Source: Maribacter sp. PR1 (GTDB taxonomy: Bacteria > Bacteroidota > Bacteroidia > Flavobacteriales > Flavobacteriaceae). Taken from it: a DNA stretch of 64,000 bases. This document shows, in pieces, positions 8,433 to 62,369 of the stretch. Within the stretch, counting starts at the first letter, position 1, and each line of letters starts with the position of its first letter. The notes under the pieces were generated by a model. The model made no database searches. It was given only the letters and a program-made list of their open reading frames with translations, and was not told the DNA's origin. The DNA lies in the NCBI RefSeq assembly GCF_028464145.1, contig NZ_JAQPCG010000006.1:62001-126000 (forward strand), written 5' to 3'. The translations under genes and the position numbers were made by a program.

Positions 8433-9551
8433 ATGAATCATATAGATCGAAGAAACTGGTTAAAGACTTTTGCGCTCAGTAGTGGTTTTACAGTTTTGGG
8501 AGGTACGGCCCAACTGGCATGGGGTAATACCTTAAAAGGAAGTAACAATACCGCGCTAAAAATTGCCAAGCTTAATAGCAATGAAAATCCGTTCGGACCT
8601 TCGGATAAAGTAAGGAAAGCCATTACTGCCGCTTTTGATAAGGCTTGTAGGTATCCATCCATGGTCTTTAAACCACTCTTGGAAAAAATAGCAGAGACCG
8701 AGGGAGTCTCAACAGATCATATCGTTGTCACCGGTGGGTCCACGGAAGGACTTAAGGCAGTGGGTCTTACCTACGGTTTAAATGGTGGTGAGTTGATTGC
8801 TGCCGACCCAACCTTTCAATCCATGCTTACTTATGCCGAAAACTTTGGCGCCTACGTACACCGAGTTCCTGTGGACGAGAATATGCAACACGATTTAAAG
8901 GAAATGGAAAACCGAATCAATAGTAAAACCCGACTCATATTTATCTGTAACCCCAACAATCCCACCGGGACCCTTTTGGACAAAAACGACCTGAAATCCT
9001 TTTGCGAAAGCACCAGTGAAAAAGCCATGGTTTTTAGCGATGAAGCATATTACGATTTTATCACGGAACCGGATTATCCTTCTATGGTCAGTTTGGTAAA
9101 GGAAGGTAAGAACATTATTGTGTCCAAAACTTTTTCCAAAGTGTATGGTATGGCGGGCATGCGTATTGGTTATTTGGTAGCACGGCCGGATATTGCAAAA
9201 CGTTTAAGAAAGAATATCATGGCAATGACCAATGTTTTGGCCATTGAAGCTGCAAAGCAAGCCTTGGATGATGATGAGTTCTACAAGTTCAGTATTGCCA
9301 AAAATGTTGAGGCAAAAGAATCCATATATAAGACTTTGGACGATTTAGAGCTTCCATATATTAAATCCCATACCAATTTTGTCTTTTTTAAAACCGGTAA
9401 ACATATCAGTGGACTTATGCCGGCCATGGAAAAAGAGAATGTTTTTATCGGAAGACCGTTCCCTCCTTTTTATGATTGGGCACGAATTAGTACCGGAACT
9501 ATGGAGGACATGAAGCAATTTGATGTGGCTTTAAAAAGGGTCTTTTCCTAA
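8433..9551 (+). CDS. Tat-exported, HisC-like class I/II PLP aminotransferase
   Basis: A fold-type I PLP enzyme of 372 aa, closest in motif to histidinol-phosphate aminotransferases: NSNENPFGPSDKVR at the N-terminus, the cofactor segment CNPNNPTGT, and the Schiff-base lysine in SKTFSKVYGMAGMRIGYL (about residue 235). Unlike biosynthetic HisC it begins with a twin-arginine signal, MNHIDRRNWLKTFALSSGF, with a hydrophobic stretch and Ala-rich end near residue 30. It should therefore be folded with PLP in the cytoplasm and exported to the periplasm. The substrate cannot be told from sequence, and the gene is not in a his operon. Directly after its stop (9549-9551) begins a decayed fragment of the yifB 3' end in antisense. 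Confidence 0.85.
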   Translation: MNHIDRRNWLKTFALSSGFTVLGGTAQLAWGNTLKGSNNTALKIAKLNSNENPFGPSDKVRKAITAAFDKACRYPSMVFKPLLEKIAETEGVSTDHIVVTGGSTEGLKAVGLTYGLNGGELIAADPTFQSMLTYAENFGAYVHRVPVDENMQHDLKEMENRINSKTRLIFICNPNNPTGTLLDKNDLKSFCESTSEKAMVFSDEAYYDFITEPDYPSMVSLVKEGKNIIVSKTFSKVYGMAGMRIGYLVARPDIAKRLRKNIMAMTNVLAIEAAKQALDDDEFYKFSIAKNVEAKESIYKTLDDLELPYIKSHTNFVFFKTGKHISGLMPAMEKENVFIGRPFPPFYDWARISTGTMEDMKQFDVALKRVFS

Positions 9552-9705
9552 CCAACCCTCCCGTTACAAACTTATACATTGAATTGCTTAGCTAAATATG
9601 ATCTCCGTTTACCCCAGGGAATGGTCTAAATCGGCCATAGTTCTTGTAACTTTTAAGATTCGGTCATACAGCACGAATTGAATAGATTAAGGCTTTAATC
9701 CGGAA
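9551..9705 (-). pseudogene. Decayed yifB 3'-end fragment (copy A)
   Basis: Read on the minus strand, this stretch translates (after one extra base) to YDRILKVTRTMADLDHSLG, then stops and further pieces AIQC-ISL and REGWL. That matches the last 45 or so residues of intact YifB (YDRILKVARTISDLDNSQ ... AIQYRSLDREGWLG at 12752-12900). Several stop codons and a frameshift show it is dead. It is the most decayed of three yifB 3' ends in the window, and all three lie in the same orientation. It ends exactly at the stop codon of the aminotransferase gene. Confidence 0.85.
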
Positions 9706-9758
9706 GGATTTGAATGCGTAAAATACTTATATTTATATTCAGCATAAACTTTATCTTG

Positions 9759-10619
9759 ATGAAAACTATGAAAGTCTCAATTTTTAGCTATTTGATTTTT
9801 ACTTCACTAATTGCGTTTGCACAACCAAAAGAAGCAGTTGAAAACTGGAAGGGAAAGAAAGTGCTATTGATTGGGGCTCATCCCGATGATGATCATCAAT
9901 CCCATGGCACATTGGCTATGCTAAATAAAAATGGCAATGAAATATATATCCTGACCATGAGTACCGGGAATGTAGGAACAAAGGACACAAAACTTGGAAA
10001 GGATGACCTTGCCAAGATTAGACGGATTGAACAACTCGATGCAATGAAACAAATTGGTTTATCTGAAGATCGGTACATTAATTTGGGTTATGATGATGGT
10101 AGACTGGAATTTGCGAATAAGGAGGAAGCTATTGGTAAATTGGTATATTATATAAGAAAGCTAAAACCCGATGTATTAATGGCTTTTGATCCTGGTTATA
10201 ATTATCAGGTTTGGCACAAAAGTGATCATCGTGCGGCGGCATATTTGGCCGCTGATGCTGTAAGAGCAGCCGAATGGCCTTTGATGTATGAAGGGCATAT
10301 CATACAGGACAAATTAGAGGCGCATGTTATTCCTGAATTCCTTTTCTATGGAGGCAATGTGTCGGACAAAAACACTATTGTAGATATTACTGACTTCGTA
10401 GATCAGCGCGTAAACGCAGGCTCCAAATATGTGAGTCAATGGACATCAGGATGGAATAATTATCTGGGACATGATATTGAAAACTATCCCGCCGCAGAAA
10501 AGGAAAAATTATTTAACAAAATCAAGGGTCGTATTAAAGTAATTGATGGAAAATTTGTTGAGAGATTTAGATACCACCAAGGAGCACCAGACTCCATGGG
10601 TCATGGGCCAAGGGATTAA
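9759..10619 (+). CDS. Secreted PIG-L family deacetylase
   Basis: Zinc-dependent N-deacetylase of the PIG-L/LmbE fold, acting on GlcNAc-type or other N-acetyl groups outside the cytoplasm. The zinc motif AHPDDDHQSHG is present (His and Asp ligands), with the later KSDHRAAAYLAADAV supplying the third histidine. The frame opens at 9714, but the ATG at 9759 starts a normal signal peptide, MKTMKVSIFSYLIFTSLIAF-AQ, so about 286 aa are expected. The substrate is unknown; sugar conjugates or small thiols are the family range. It sits alone between two decayed yifB fragments, which suggests acquisition together with a yifB 3' end. Confidence 0.88.
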   Translation: MKTMKVSIFSYLIFTSLIAFAQPKEAVENWKGKKVLLIGAHPDDDHQSHGTLAMLNKNGNEIYILTMSTGNVGTKDTKLGKDDLAKIRRIEQLDAMKQIGLSEDRYINLGYDDGRLEFANKEEAIGKLVYYIRKLKPDVLMAFDPGYNYQVWHKSDHRAAAYLAADAVRAAEWPLMYEGHIIQDKLEAHVIPEFLFYGGNVSDKNTIVDITDFVDQRVNAGSKYVSQWTSGWNNYLGHDIENYPAAEKEKLFNKIKGRIKVIDGKFVERFRYHQGAPDSMGHGPRD

Positions 10620-10858
10620 TGCCGCTCTTTCAAAATCGGAGCTGCTGCAAATCCTTTGTAAAATGAAACTCTGATGTTCTATAGCGTAAATTAAATATTT
10701 CTTTACCTTGATGAGGAAACCACAACAATTACTTCAATTGATAAAATTCTTAGGAAAAGTTCGCTGATGTCTGCTCATTGCAAATAAGTTCAGCAAATAC
10801 ACCAAGCGGACACCAAACAGAAACTCGTGGCAAAATTAATCACTGAAAACTACCCTAA

Positions 10859-11418
10859 TCACCCTTCTCTATTTAAAGAACAATATTGTATCGCTTCCGA
10901 AATATGATTCCCGTTCAAATCCTTTTCATTAGCTAAATCGGCAATGGTACGGGCGACTTTTAAAATTCTGTCATAGGCCCCGGCGGAAAGATTCAAGTGC
11001 TCCATAGCATTTTTAAGTAAGGCTTTCGAGGTTTCGTCTAGCCTACAAAACTTCCGGATCTGTTTGGTATTCATTTGTGCATTGTAATGCACATTTTCCA
11101 AATCCTCAAAACGCTTGGTCTGTTTTTCCCCTGCTGCAGTTACCCGTTTGCGGATGTCCACACTGCTCTCCCCTTTTCTATCTTCGGAGAGTTTCTCAAA
11201 GGGTACCGGTGTTACTTCAATATGAATGTCAATTCGATCTAACAGTGGTCCGGAGACCTTGCTTAGATAGCGTTGCATTTCTGCAGGAGAAGAGGTAACC
11301 GGGGCATCCGGATCATTAAAGTAACCACACGGACTACGATTCATACGGGCCACAAGCATAAAACTAATGGGATAGCTTACTAAAAAACGAGCTTTTAAAG
11401 AGTGACCTTTCTATCCCT
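10859..11418 (-). pseudogene. Partial yifB duplicate, C-terminal third (copy B)
   Basis: A frame from 11359 to 10859 encodes the last 166 or so residues of a YifB protein, and recognisable homology continues to about 11418. There is no AAA+ core. Key residues of the intact gene's SMNPSPGGYFNDPD are altered (RMNRSPCGYFNDPD), two conserved Arg are Gly (TAAGEK, LSAGAY), and the terminal TGG codon is TGA. Between about 11060 and 11345 it is nearly identical to the intact gene at 12962-13247 (roughly ten differences by hand comparison), whereas the terminal 200 bp are much more diverged, so the copy is a mosaic. No start, no Walker motifs: not functional as an ATPase. Confidence 0.9.
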
Positions 11419-11729
11419 AATAGTCTGTCATATCATTCGAAAAAAATCTTTATCAAACTCTAGTTACTAGTCAAAATAAAACGCTGATTTCTAAATAGTA
11501 TTTCGCTCCAAGTTAATAAGAGACCTCTCCACGAGCTTAGTCAATTTATAAGTCGCTATTTATTGGGAAAATATGTCCTAATTCTTGTAATCTGGATAAT
11601 CTAGGACATTGTTAAATAGCAATCAAATTAGATTAGTGAATATCATCTGCAGGTTTGCACATTAATGTATTTCAAATTAATGACAAGTCGATTGATGAGG
11701 GAACAATTAAACTTCTTAATAACAAACTA

Positions 11730-12614
11730 ATGAACGAAAAAGACTTAAAAAACAAAATAGTTTGGGTCACGGGCGCATCCTCCGGAATAGGAGCTTCCCT
11801 AGTTACCCAATTAAACAACCTAGGTACAATAGTAATTGCTTCAGCTAGACGAAAAGAAAAATTAGTTAAACTGAAGAAAAAGAGTAGCAATCCAAAAAAT
11901 ATCATCATTATTCCACTTGACATAACGAATACTAATTCAATTAAAAAGGCGATGGCAAAAATACAGCAGCTTGACAAACTTGATCTAGTAATTCATAATG
12001 CAGGAATTTCACAGAAAGGATTGGTGATTGAAAACGAAATGAAAATTGATAGAACTATTATGGAAACAAATTATTTTGGAACCATATCTCTTACAAAAGC
12101 AGTAATGCCTATTTATTTAAAACAAGGTTTTGGTTCGTTCGCAGTAGTATCAAGCTTTGCAGGTGTTATGGGTCTCCCTGGAAGGTCAGCCTATGCGGCA
12201 TCAAAACATGCCCTACATGGTTTTTTTGAATCATTAAGAGCTGAAAATATAAGATGTAAAATACATATAAGCTTTATTATTCCTGGCTTTATAAATACTA
12301 AGATAACGGCAAAAGGTCTATGCGGTGATGGTATACCACATGGTAGAGTAGAAACGTCCCATCAAATGGGTATGACTCCGGGGCAATGTGCTGATAAAAT
12401 CATTAAAGGGTTAAGCAAGCGAAAATCGAGAATTTTAATTGGAAAAATCGAAGTGTTCTTACTTTATATACATAAAATTTCCCCAAGATTAAGTCATTAC
12501 ATTATAAAAAATCATCCTATGAAAAGAATTCGCAATATTAAGTCTAAAATTAAACGCCCTATTAGGTTTAAGAGAACTTCAATGATTGAAAAGGTAAATG
12601 AAGAATTCAAATAA
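11730..12614 (+). CDS. Short-chain dehydrogenase/reductase (DHRS7-like)
   Basis: NAD(P)-dependent oxidoreductase with a classical SDR core: TGASSGIG cofactor loop, HNAG (HNAGIS), and the catalytic YAASKHA (Tyr-x-x-x-Lys) with the upstream Ser in VVSSFAG. The open frame begins at 11655, but the ATG at 11730 (MNEKDLKNKIVWVTGASSG) is the natural family start, giving 294 aa. A basic C-terminal extension with a hydrophobic segment follows the core and could bind membranes. The gene is visibly richer in A+T, with AAA/ATA/TTA codons, than the flanking genes and lies between yifB copy B and intact yifB; both point to horizontal acquisition. Substrate unknown. Confidence 0.88.
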   Translation: MNEKDLKNKIVWVTGASSGIGASLVTQLNNLGTIVIASARRKEKLVKLKKKSSNPKNIIIIPLDITNTNSIKKAMAKIQQLDKLDLVIHNAGISQKGLVIENEMKIDRTIMETNYFGTISLTKAVMPIYLKQGFGSFAVVSSFAGVMGLPGRSAYAASKHALHGFFESLRAENIRCKIHISFIIPGFINTKITAKGLCGDGIPHGRVETSHQMGMTPGQCADKIIKGLSKRKSRILIGKIEVFLLYIHKISPRLSHYIIKNHPMKRIRNIKSKIKRPIRFKRTSMIEKVNEEFK

Positions 12615-12751
12615 TCCTTGCTAAAATAAAATTATTTATTCCAGAATCATAATGATTTATAATTTCTAAGTAGATAAAACTTATCTATGCGTCTATATTT
12701 AAAACATTAAATTACAATTAGTTACAACAAATCTATTAATTTGATATAAGA

Positions 12752-14287
12752 CTATCCCAACCAACCCTCCCTATCCAAACTCCGATATTGAATCGCTTCG
12801 CTGATATGGTTTCCATTTACTTCCTGCGAGTTATCCAAATCTGATATGGTCCGCGCAACTTTTAAGATTCGATCATAAGCACGAGCTGAAAGGTTTAATC
12901 GCTCCATCGCATTTTTAAGTAGAGATTTAGATTTTTCGTCCAGCTTACAATATTCCCGTATTTGTTTGGTATTCATTTGTGCATTGTAATGCACATTTTC
13001 CAAATCCTCAAAACGCTTGGTCTGTTTTTCCCTTGCTGCAGTTACCCGTTTGCGGATGTCCACACTGCTCTCTCCTTTTCTATCTTCGGAGAGTTTCTCA
13101 AAGGGTACCGGTGTTACTTCAATATGAATGTCAATTCGGTCTAACAGTGGTCCGGAAATCTTGCTTAGATAACGTTGCATTTCTGCAGGAGAAGAGGTAA
13201 CCGGGGCATCCGGATCATTAAAGTAACCACCCGGACTAGGGTTCATACTGGCTACCAGCATAAAACTACTGGGATAGGTAACCGTAAAGCGTGCTCTTGA
13301 GATAGTCACCTCCCGGTCCTCCAAGGGCTGACGCATAACTTCCAAAACACCTCTCTTGAACTCTGGTAATTCATCCAAAAACAGTACTCCATTATGGGAA
13401 AGGGATATTTCACCTGGTTGCGGGTATGCTCCTCCACCAACTAAGGCTACATCGGAAATCGTATGGTGAGGACTTCTAAAAGGTCTTTGACTCATTAGTC
13501 CCATATTTTTTATTTTCCCTACAACACTATGAATTTTAGTAGTTTCCAAGGCTTCATGTAAGGTCATTGGTGGTAAAATAGAGGGCAACCTCTTGGCCAA
13601 CATCGTTTTTCCGGCACCTGGCGGACCAATAAGAATTATGTTATGTCCCCCGGCTGCAGCGATTTCCATACAGCGTTTAATGCTCTCCTGACCTTTAACA
13701 TCGGAAAAATCAAATTCTGGAAAGTCAAGGCTTTTATAAAATTCGGCACGGGTATCTATGATGGTTTGCTCTAAAGGTGTTCCCTGGTCAAAAAACTCCA
13801 ATACCTGTTTGATGTTATCCACACCATAAACTTTCAGATCGCTTACAATAGCCGCTTCCCTAGCGTTATCATTCGGTAATATAAACCCTGTAAAACCTTC
13901 TTCCTTAGCTTTAATGGCGATGGGCAAAGCACCCTTTATGGGCTGTAAACTTCCATCCAAGGAAAGTTCCCCCATAATGATGTACTTCTCAATATCCTCT
14001 GATTGTATTTGGTTGGACGCCGCTAAAATCCCCAATGCCAAAGTCAAATCGTACGCAGAACCCTCCTTTCTTAAATCGGCCGGGGCCATATTAATCGTAA
14101 TTTTCTTTCCTGGAATTTTATACCCGTTATTTTGTAATGCAGCGGCTATTCGGTAATTACTTTCTTTAATTGCGTTATCGGGAAGACCTACCAAATGATA
14201 ACCAATTCCTTTATCAATATTAACCTCAACGGTTATCGTAGTTGCCTCCACGCCAAAGACGGCGCTCCCGTAAACTTTTGTAAGCAT
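12752..14287 (-). CDS. yifB: YifB/ComM family Mg-chelatase-like AAA+ ATPase
   Basis: A full-length 511-aa AAA+ protein: N-terminal ChlI-like domain (residues 1-170), Walker A GPPGAGKT at 221-228, Walker B GVLFLDELPEF near 304, sensor region SMNPSPGGYFNDPD, and the C-terminal helical lid ending SLDREGWLG. Relatives such as ComM are helicases that promote branch migration during natural transformation in some bacteria. That this copy does so is inference. The ATG at 14287 gives the standard MLTKVYGSAVFGVEA start. Two partial copies of its 3' end lie downstream. comM is also known as an insertion target for resistance islands in Acinetobacter, although by a different geometry. Confidence 0.96.
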   Translation of the reverse strand: MLTKVYGSAVFGVEATTITVEVNIDKGIGYHLVGLPDNAIKESNYRIAAALQNNGYKIPGKKITINMAPADLRKEGSAYDLTLALGILAASNQIQSEDIEKYIIMGELSLDGSLQPIKGALPIAIKAKEEGFTGFILPNDNAREAAIVSDLKVYGVDNIKQVLEFFDQGTPLEQTIIDTRAEFYKSLDFPEFDFSDVKGQESIKRCMEIAAAGGHNIILIGPPGAGKTMLAKRLPSILPPMTLHEALETTKIHSVVGKIKNMGLMSQRPFRSPHHTISDVALVGGGAYPQPGEISLSHNGVLFLDELPEFKRGVLEVMRQPLEDREVTISRARFTVTYPSSFMLVASMNPSPGGYFNDPDAPVTSSPAEMQRYLSKISGPLLDRIDIHIEVTPVPFEKLSEDRKGESSVDIRKRVTAAREKQTKRFEDLENVHYNAQMNTKQIREYCKLDEKSKSLLKNAMERLNLSARAYDRILKVARTISDLDNSQEVNGNHISEAIQYRSLDREGWLG

Positions 14288-61382: not shown

Positions 61383-62369
61383 TCAGTTTGCTTTTATCCT
61401 ATAGGTAATTCCTCTATTTGTAATGACCGTTGCAGCCACATTTAGGGTAACTATGGCACTATCGCATAAATGGCTATTATCGATAAATTCCATACTACAA
61501 AGCGAGGGCCGAGCAGAACCACTACCGTCCATAAACTTACCTAAGAGTACATCTGTAGCAAGGCCCGTGTTCAAAGGGGAGTACTCAGGTGCCAAAGGAA
61601 AAACGGTCGTTGCCCCATTGGCCGAAAAAGTAACATTACCGGTTATTTCATCGTAATTAATAACATAAGGCACACTACCCGAAACGAAACTACCCAAATT
61701 AATAGTAAATGAATCCGGTAATCCAGTAGTGCCATTGATGACATCTACTCGGAGACCTATATTATTACCAGAGATGTGGTATACCCTTAAGTTACCACCT
61801 GTAATTATATCTGCCGTACTTTCCTGATCTTCGTATTCAAAAGACACCGTGAAACTCGTAAAATCGAAGATGCCACCGGTATTGGGAATGTTAATATCAA
61901 AACCTGTGGAACCACCAGATCCCGATGGAAAATAAGTACCACAACCCGTTTGCGCTGCTGATGGATTAATCGATGTAGCATTAGGTCCAACAGTTGCTAA
62001 GGTTAGGTCCGGATCGTCAAAATCAAATCTCGAAACAATATTATTTGGAGAACCGTCATCACAAACTTGATAAGTAAAACTATCCGTCCCTACAAATCCA
62101 TTGTTTGGTGTGTATGTAAGTCCACCATTAGCCAGTAGGGATAAGCTACCCGAGCCGGGGCCGCTTAAAGGAGTTGTTCTCACCTGCAACGTTGTACCTG
62201 CGTTAGCATCCGTGTCGTTGAACAATACACCATTTAGACCGTTCACTACCCTGGGGGTTTGAAAACCTATGTTATAGACATCATCAATGGCAACGGGGGG
62301 CACTTTTTGTGCCACAACTGTCATTGCAGCAAAAAGTATTAGAACCACAAATAATTGATTATTGCCCAT
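61383..62369 (-). CDS. Secreted cadherin-like protein with a domain inserted in the last strands
   Basis: A 328-aa exported protein (signal MGNNQLFVVLILFAAMTVVA-QK). Residues 25-110 form a cadherin-like/Ig-like repeat with the calcium-type motifs AIDDVYNIG, GVLFNDTDANAGTTL, LTYTPNNGFVGTDSFTYQVC and DDGSPNN. The repeat normally ends with ...LCDTATVTLTV; here the ending HLCDSAIVTLNV appears only at 299-311. The roughly 189 residues between (111-299) look like a concanavalin/LamG-type beta sandwich (FDFTSFTVSFEYEDQES, YVINYDEITGNVTFSANG). The C-terminus TNRGITYRIKAN lacks a recognisable type IX sorting domain. Role unknown; adhesion or glycan binding at the surface is plausible. Confidence 0.8.
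   Translation of the reverse strand: MGNNQLFVVLILFAAMTVVAQKVPPVAIDDVYNIGFQTPRVVNGLNGVLFNDTDANAGTTLQVRTTPLSGPGSGSLSLLANGGLTYTPNNGFVGTDSFTYQVCDDGSPNNIVSRFDFDDPDLTLATVGPNATSINPSAAQTGCGTYFPSGSGGSTGFDINIPNTGGIFDFTSFTVSFEYEDQESTADIITGGNLRVYHISGNNIGLRVDVINGTTGLPDSFTINLGSFVSGSVPYVINYDEITGNVTFSANGATTVFPLAPEYSPLNTGLATDVLLGKFMDGSGSARPSLCSMEFIDNSHLCDSAIVTLNVAATVITNRGITYRIKAN

Follow-up and report, generated by a model that had tools for sequence, protein, structure and literature searches.

Integrases usually insert at gene ends, leaving the gene whole. AbaR-type islands of Acinetobacter enter comM by transposition-type insertion. For the large serine recombinases (LSRs), the accessible passages of the catalogue of Durrant et al. 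(2022; PMC10083194) report insertion into the Mg chelatase gene (yifB/comM), which is the target of 12.4% of the predicted site-specific integrases, and an enrichment of competence genes among LSR targets. In Wolbachia, the sr1 prophages of phage WO are described as splitting the Mg chelatase gene by means of an LSR, with gene parts on both sides (PMC9203015). The excerpted account of the Dehalococcoides ssrA islands describes tandem serine-recombinase islands downstream of one gene, bounded by repeats of the 3' end of that gene; the newest island adjoins the gene, and a short conserved motif to the left of each repeat marks the junction (PMC3146451). Characterised members of the ComM family, as far as the sources consulted describe them, act in the recombination of imported DNA. 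Here we describe the yifB locus of Maribacter sp. PR1 (Flavobacteriaceae), contained in a stretch of 64,000 nucleotides (positions 62,001 to 126,000 of contig NZ_JAQPCG010000006.1, assembly GCF_028464145.1), referred to as the window. Besides intact yifB, this locus holds two displaced pieces of the yifB 3' end, copies B and A. From the comparison with relatives we consider, with moderate confidence, that LSR elements inserted repeatedly at yifB and that A and B are the fossils they left.

We analyzed yifB in 36 genomes of the genus, 34 of which had a yifB match, and in 328 genomes of the family, 313 with a match (G numbers denote genomes and L numbers denote loci). Two of the 34 Maribacter genomes, Maribacter spongiicola (G031) and M. 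thermophilus (G033), carry a yifB split by inserts of 12.3 and 15.9 kb, respectively. Joining the flanks restored the length of the intact gene: 1533 in G031 and 1532 in G033, where the joined sequence ended one base early. In both genomes, the neighbor of the yifB 5' half is an LSR, 597 or 649 aa long, whose domains are Resolvase, Recombinase and a zinc ribbon. Across the family, 59 genomes that looked split or gave multiple hits were re-searched; some others with two matches or low scores (e.g., G067, G092, G174, G175, G274 and G283) were left out, and the family counts are lower bounds. At least 10 of the 313 family genomes have yifB split near codon 279. Splits near codons 267 to 288 with both halves present were found in G080, G166, G291, G282, G110, G091, G071, G193, G107 and G338, the halves lying on different contigs in the last three. 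Splits near codons 294 to 298 occur in G051 and G359, and G367 (L185/L186), a relative of G353, carries two LSR elements in a single yifB, one near codon 23 and the other near codon 279. Separately, yifB of G016 (L048) ends after codon 28, with the remainder not found; codons 23 to 28 would be a third target region. Scanning GTDB genomes with an alignment of the LSRs returned 23 loci. At 21 of them a yifB half lay in the flank (<=6 kb); L141, a 3-kb contig, and L155 were the exceptions. Seven insert proteins from G033 and G359 included parts of type III restriction-modification systems and the DISARM-type DrmA and DrmMII, one being without a match, and a further G033 insert protein was a UmuC-like polymerase. 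Together, these data support yifB as a recurrent insertion and cargo hotspot in these relatives.

Displaced yifB 3' halves also occur in genomes of this family. Those starting at the core with a CCACATTANATACTATNACA arm were found in G032, G005, G019, G147 (two), G353, G194, G354 and G051. In G032, G005 and G019 they have an identical start base and are preceded by a ACAGATGT arm unlike the gene. Judged by sequence, displaced 3' halves that begin at the core behind an LSR attP arm are attR scars. We extracted 24 attR-like and 14 attL-like junctions; three of the former had another arm (G199, G247 and L142) and were dropped from the attR profile, and one of the latter (G051) was dropped from the attL set. 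The attR arm reads approximately CCCCCACATTAAATACTATYACA before GATGT and the attL arm approximately GATGTTACATTATATGATGTGGGGG after it, with AATGT and AACGT as core variants. The inferred attP is near-palindromic, as expected for this class of enzymes. Genomes in which displaced 3' halves or ends accompany intact yifB include G147, G353, G199, G247, G194, G354, G047 and G109. G147 bears two attR scars eroded to different degrees, and G051 combines a live codon-296 element with an older codon-279 scar. An earlier prediction, made from the window sequence, had proposed a comparison of the region downstream of yifB in relatives; variable cargo and partial yifB ends were indeed found there.

Further start points of displaced yifB ends recur: nt 1351 twice in one genome, G354 (L080, 3443 and 7163), and nt 1420 to 1421, with similar left flanks, in two genera (G329, L102; G293, L114). 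About 39 kb without an evident recombinase in the list of open reading frames (ORFs) separate the yifB parts of G199. REP-like CCAGTTGCAA sequences lie near yifB ends in G353, G051 and G029.

Several genomes appear to have regained a whole yifB after a split. In G109 and G353, a truncated yifB 5' half that ends at the core follows the intact gene at about 50 bp past its stop, and an element remnant and a 3' piece come next; this arrangement implies that a split gene once existed, the intact copy now lying upstream. The attL arm of G109 is clear (15.6 bits; 24 of the 414 GATGT places, true sites included, score 10 or more). To compare displaced with intact copies, we used the divergence at silent (pS) and replacement (pN) sites. 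The pS/pN values were 0.60/0.018 for G147, 0.58/0.028 for G353 (nt 1020 to 1533) and 0.57/0.038 for G247, and in the window they were 0.85/0.135 for B (nt 1321 to 1533) and 0.58/0.135 for A (44 codons). Pairs of intact genes within the genus had medians of 0.82/0.105 over nt 1321 to 1533 and 0.79/0.059 over the 3' half. Since the divergence lies mostly at silent sites, displaced and intact copies would have evolved largely as working alleles, and one of each pair was therefore probably imported. Import of an intact allele best explains, on these alignments, how yifB was regained, and the origin from a donor allele that had been predicted fits the same values. For G353, G247, G199, G047 and G354, the relative is no closer to the scar than to the intact copy. 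The scars of G032, G194 and G199 are 96 to 98% identical to the intact copy, and these fit recent duplication or conversion.

In the window, the genes run in the order yifB, SDR gene, copy B, DUF6090 5' remnant, PIG-L deacetylase gene, copy A and aminotransferase gene (Table 1). The original prediction had recognized three yifB 3' ends in one orientation, with the SDR gene between intact yifB and B, the PIG-L gene separating B from A, and A abutting the aminotransferase gene. Profile searches bore out this layout; copy B is present and slightly longer than had been claimed (to 11492). In the whole Maribacter sp. PR1 genome, yifB gave three matches, the intact gene, B and A, and none further. 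The intact ORF of the window is unsplit at the GATGT core. Decay had been said to grow with distance from the intact gene. In-frame stops agree with this, with 1 in the 181 matched codons of B and 3 (all TAA) in the 47 of A, and stops plus indels are more numerous outward (A more than B). Identity does not: over the common last 143 bp, A and the intact gene are 75.4% identical, B and the intact gene 67.8%, and A and B 61.3%. A monotonic decay series was rejected because these identities are out of order. Over the same 143 bp, B is 74.1% identical to the sister species G001.

Copy B is also a mosaic. Its stretch corresponding to nt 1081 to 1320 has 6 differences from intact yifB in 240 positions, compared with identities of 64.6% (nt 835 to 1080) and 70.9% (nt 1321 to 1533) in the flanks. 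The difference between the middle and the 3' part gave a Fisher p of 9e-17, with the 3' part entered as 150/213 matches where the alignment gives 151. Gene conversion by intact yifB probably made this tract. The DUF6090 remnant, which the original prediction had not mentioned, lies immediately downstream of B and matches at 13 of 21 residues by tblastn (E 8e-4). In three other Maribacter (G015, G019 and G032), its counterpart is no more than about 160 bp from the intact yifB stop. From this neighbor, and from a low pN at high pS, B looks like the former end of a working yifB. Copy A starts at yifB nt 1387, not at the core, and adjoins the border of the PIG-L cassette; A may be truncated.

Table 1. 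Features of the yifB locus in window coordinates, with places of the class-2 scars of relatives
Feature	Position	Strand	Details
Intact yifB	12752..14287	-	511-aa ORF; Pfam Mg_chelatase, ChlI, Mg_chelatase_C; AAA ATPase, Mg chelatase-like; by family a ComM homologue
GATGT at yifB codon 279	13449..13453	-	Core at which yifB of relatives is split by LSR elements; predicted attB, unoccupied in the window
Copy B, displaced yifB 3' end	10853..11492	-	yifB nt 891-1533; nhmmer profile match E 5e-156
Tract in B like intact yifB	11066..11305	-	nt 1081-1320, 97.5% identity; end points approximate
Copy A, displaced yifB 3' terminus	9547..9694	-	yifB nt 1387-1532; nhmmer E 2.7e-16; stops and indels
SDR gene, cargo 1	11655..12614	+	adh_short 4e-44; TTG start as listed, in-frame ATG at ~11730
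DUF6090 gene 5' remnant	10676..10800	+	Upstream region and ~21 codons, one stop; nhmmer E 7.1e-13
PIG-L deacetylase cassette, cargo 2	9676..10619 (gene 9714-10619)	+	PIG-L 7.7e-25
Class I/II aminotransferase gene, distal border of variable region	8433..9551	+	Aminotran_1_2 3e-51
Class-2 scars in relatives	L063 2320, 6014, 7768; L060 4133; L097; L184; L188		

According to our model, an LSR element would insert by attP x attB recombination at the fixed codon-279 core and split yifB, as is seen in relatives. Once an intact allele had been regained, the element between the copies would erode to little cargo; such end states are also present in relatives. After repeated cycles, intact yifB would be followed by cargo, a displaced 3' end, more cargo and then an older displaced 3' end. 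Applied to the window, B would once have formed the 3' end of a working yifB, A would be an older end that has been shortened, and later conversion would have made part of B resemble the intact gene. Thus, the predicted serial insertion that pushes older ends outward is seen in relatives, and B has the neighbor of a working yifB; the places of A and B in the series are those that we infer.

Several observations weigh against this reading. In the window, none of the ORFs between yifB and the aminotransferase gene encodes a recombinase, in line with the original prediction, which had noted no visible integrase. Significant homology of B ends 57 bp inside the LSR core, further extension not being significant; an attR arm at this left edge scores z 1.8, a value reached by 52 of 300 random stretches of the window, and for the left arm by itself 257 of 300 shuffles score at or above it. 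Copy A is without its left part. Because there is neither a recombinase nor a significant att arm between yifB and the aminotransferase gene, A and B are placed in the LSR cycle by analogy. In relatives, a yifB scar was undetected at several cargo-bearing Maribacter loci (e.g., L052 to L056, L058, L059, L061, L062 and L064), and among 40 further family genomes, searched over about 7 kb downstream (a few shorter), extra yifB pieces occurred in only 4 (E 1e-4). The attL arm of G353 is not significant (4.9 bits, reached by 94 of 414 GATGT places). In two genera, G199 (L073 to L075) and G247 (L079), displaced halves start at nt 819 to 820 after a common TGTTACAAATGG arm, which was rejected as the LSR attP since its sequence differs. 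The native copy was not identifiable from relatives, which are too distant, and in a tree five scars (G032, G019, G353, G147 and B, its converted tract included) are sister to the yifB of their own host.

This branching was the outcome that, in the original prediction, would speak for one old tandem duplication. One or two such duplications, in which the yifB 3' end was copied and the copies later decayed and received cargo between them, would account for the tree and for the near-identical scars of G032, G194 and G199. We did not take the tree as refuting serial acquisition because the silent-site divergence argues against one old dead duplicate: such a copy would gather replacement changes, yet pN/pS is low. 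On the same ground, A and B as a simple dead duplicate were rejected. Moreover, A is nearer to intact yifB than B is, the A-B pair is the least alike, and duplication leaves the exact cores and attP arms of relatives unexplained. We regard this origin of A and B as improbable.

The original prediction had favored homologous recombination as the simplest idea. Acting serially and alone, it would take a linear donor carrying a yifB 3' end and cargo, with illegitimate joining at the other end and no recombinase. Naturally competent species are known to undergo homology-facilitated illegitimate recombination (PMC3240628), and natural competence is reported for one member of the Flavobacteriaceae (PMC8383284). 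The lack of any recombinase ORF in the part of the window that separates yifB from the aminotransferase gene, the mostly silent divergence of A and B, the mosaic tract in B, and the varied starts of short terminal pieces in relatives (nt 1106, 1226, 1351, 1387, 1403, 1420 and 1458) all favor such a process. However, it does not predict the single exact core, adjoined by a conserved foreign arm, at which most of the long displaced ends of relatives begin. In relatives, a dedicated LSR clade inserts into yifB at that core, breaking the gene and leaving attR scars behind. Homologous recombination as the simplest idea is thus not supported, and we give it a modest chance as the sole process behind A and B.

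Over exactly positions 9676 to 10619, the PIG-L stretch shows nucleotide identities of 89.5% to G005 and 87.9% to G015, and this conservation stops at 9676, near the start of A. The PIG-L protein is 93% identical to that of G015, compared with 74% for the aminotransferase, which argues that this cargo moved between species. No close relative of the SDR gene was found in the other 35 genomes of the genus, the best identity among the matches listed being at most 40%. The aminotransferase is the border gene in many relatives too, and yifB directly adjoins it in G026. Other Maribacter carry varied genes between yifB and the aminotransferase, TM187 or DUF148 genes; elsewhere, yifB directly adjoins these.

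In a second kind of scar, class 2, a conserved arm, GTTACACATTCGGGTGTATAGCC, precedes a piece of yifB that comprises only its terminal ~50 bp. Seven were found in five genomes: three in G015 and the others in G029, G064, G232 and G291. With up to 3 mismatches, the GTTACACATTCGGGTGTATAGCC pattern occurs in 1 of 397 family genomes, a sample with only three Maribacter and with the G064 and G291 arms exceeding 3 mismatches; its one place is 2.2 kb downstream of yifB, on the yifB strand. A second site-specific system might thus act at the very end of yifB, restoring the gene end and displacing the last ~50 bp with this arm. The number of these scars and the rarity and position of the pattern speak for such a system. 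As an origin of A and B it is very improbable: A (146 bp) and B (640 bp) exceed the length of the class, no such arm was found in the window, and no class-2 recombinase was identified in the ORF lists of the fetched loci.

DUF6090 genes are linked to both kinds of arm. Upstream of 30 DUF6090 starts, a codon-279 arm of at least 12 bits lay at a near-constant distance in 9 (two of which, G032 and G051, were also in the profile training set) and a class-2 arm in 4; in the control, 14 of 1199 other ORFs had at least 10 bits. Arrays of DUF6090 genes lie downstream of yifB in G291 (Eudoraea adriatica; L188/L189), L045, L047, L063 and L081, and several array genes have the LSR attP arm about 85 bp before their start. 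At the E. adriatica locus, about 13 DUF6090 genes are found together with several displaced yifB pieces. DUF6090 was absent from 14 control genomes; among 13 genomes searched, the highest count in a single genome was 56 matches. It also occurs far from yifB, with 18 matches in the genome of the window, and yifB is thus only one of the homes of these genes. The word DUF6090 was not found in the literature searched. Taking these data jointly, we tentatively suggest, as a rather unlikely reading, that yifB of Flavobacteriaceae is an accumulating array site for several unrelated recombinases, with DUF6090 as a recurrent passenger and a layered record of insertion and rescue. Such a site would have cores at codon 279, at about codon 296 and at about codons 23 to 28, plus a further border in the last 50 bp, and the passenger would sit at a fixed distance (~85 bp) from the attP arm. 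With each insertion the cell would lose yifB, and it would regain it by importing an allele, in the very gene that serves recombination of imported DNA.

At yifB, elements break a ComM-family gene that the lineage seems to regain, the broken half staying as a dated mark. If this reading is right, past insertions, losses and rescues could be read from a single locus, which would also allow a direct test of whether imported alleles serve cells to repair their recombination genes. Ready pairs for genetic tools in marine Bacteroidota are provided as well by the conserved attP and attB sequences. The original prediction had suggested an undescribed cargo hotspot; the hotspot is supported in relatives, and LSR targeting of yifB/comM is already published. 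Serial 3' scars with regained alleles were not found in the literature searched: no paper on them appeared by title or abstract start, in a search with most subscription journals outside it.

Among known systems, the AbaR-type islands have their target in the same gene family as yifB. In the catalogue of Durrant et al. (PMC10083194), diverse LSRs insert into the Mg chelatase gene, the target found here too; the accessible text of that catalogue concerns present insertions and says nothing of displaced 3' ends, repeated cycles or regained genes. The sr1 prophages of phage WO split the same gene family by an LSR, but they are prophages of an endosymbiont, and the part of the account available describes no series of displaced ends (PMC9203015). 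The Dehalococcoides ssrA islands, as excerpted, involve a 20-bp repeat and insertion at the gene end (PMC3146451). In contrast, A and B are long diverged pieces rather than the short identical direct repeats of ssrA-type island borders, and insertion at codon 279 splits yifB, so that a half gene of up to 700 bp remains and a whole allele is regained.

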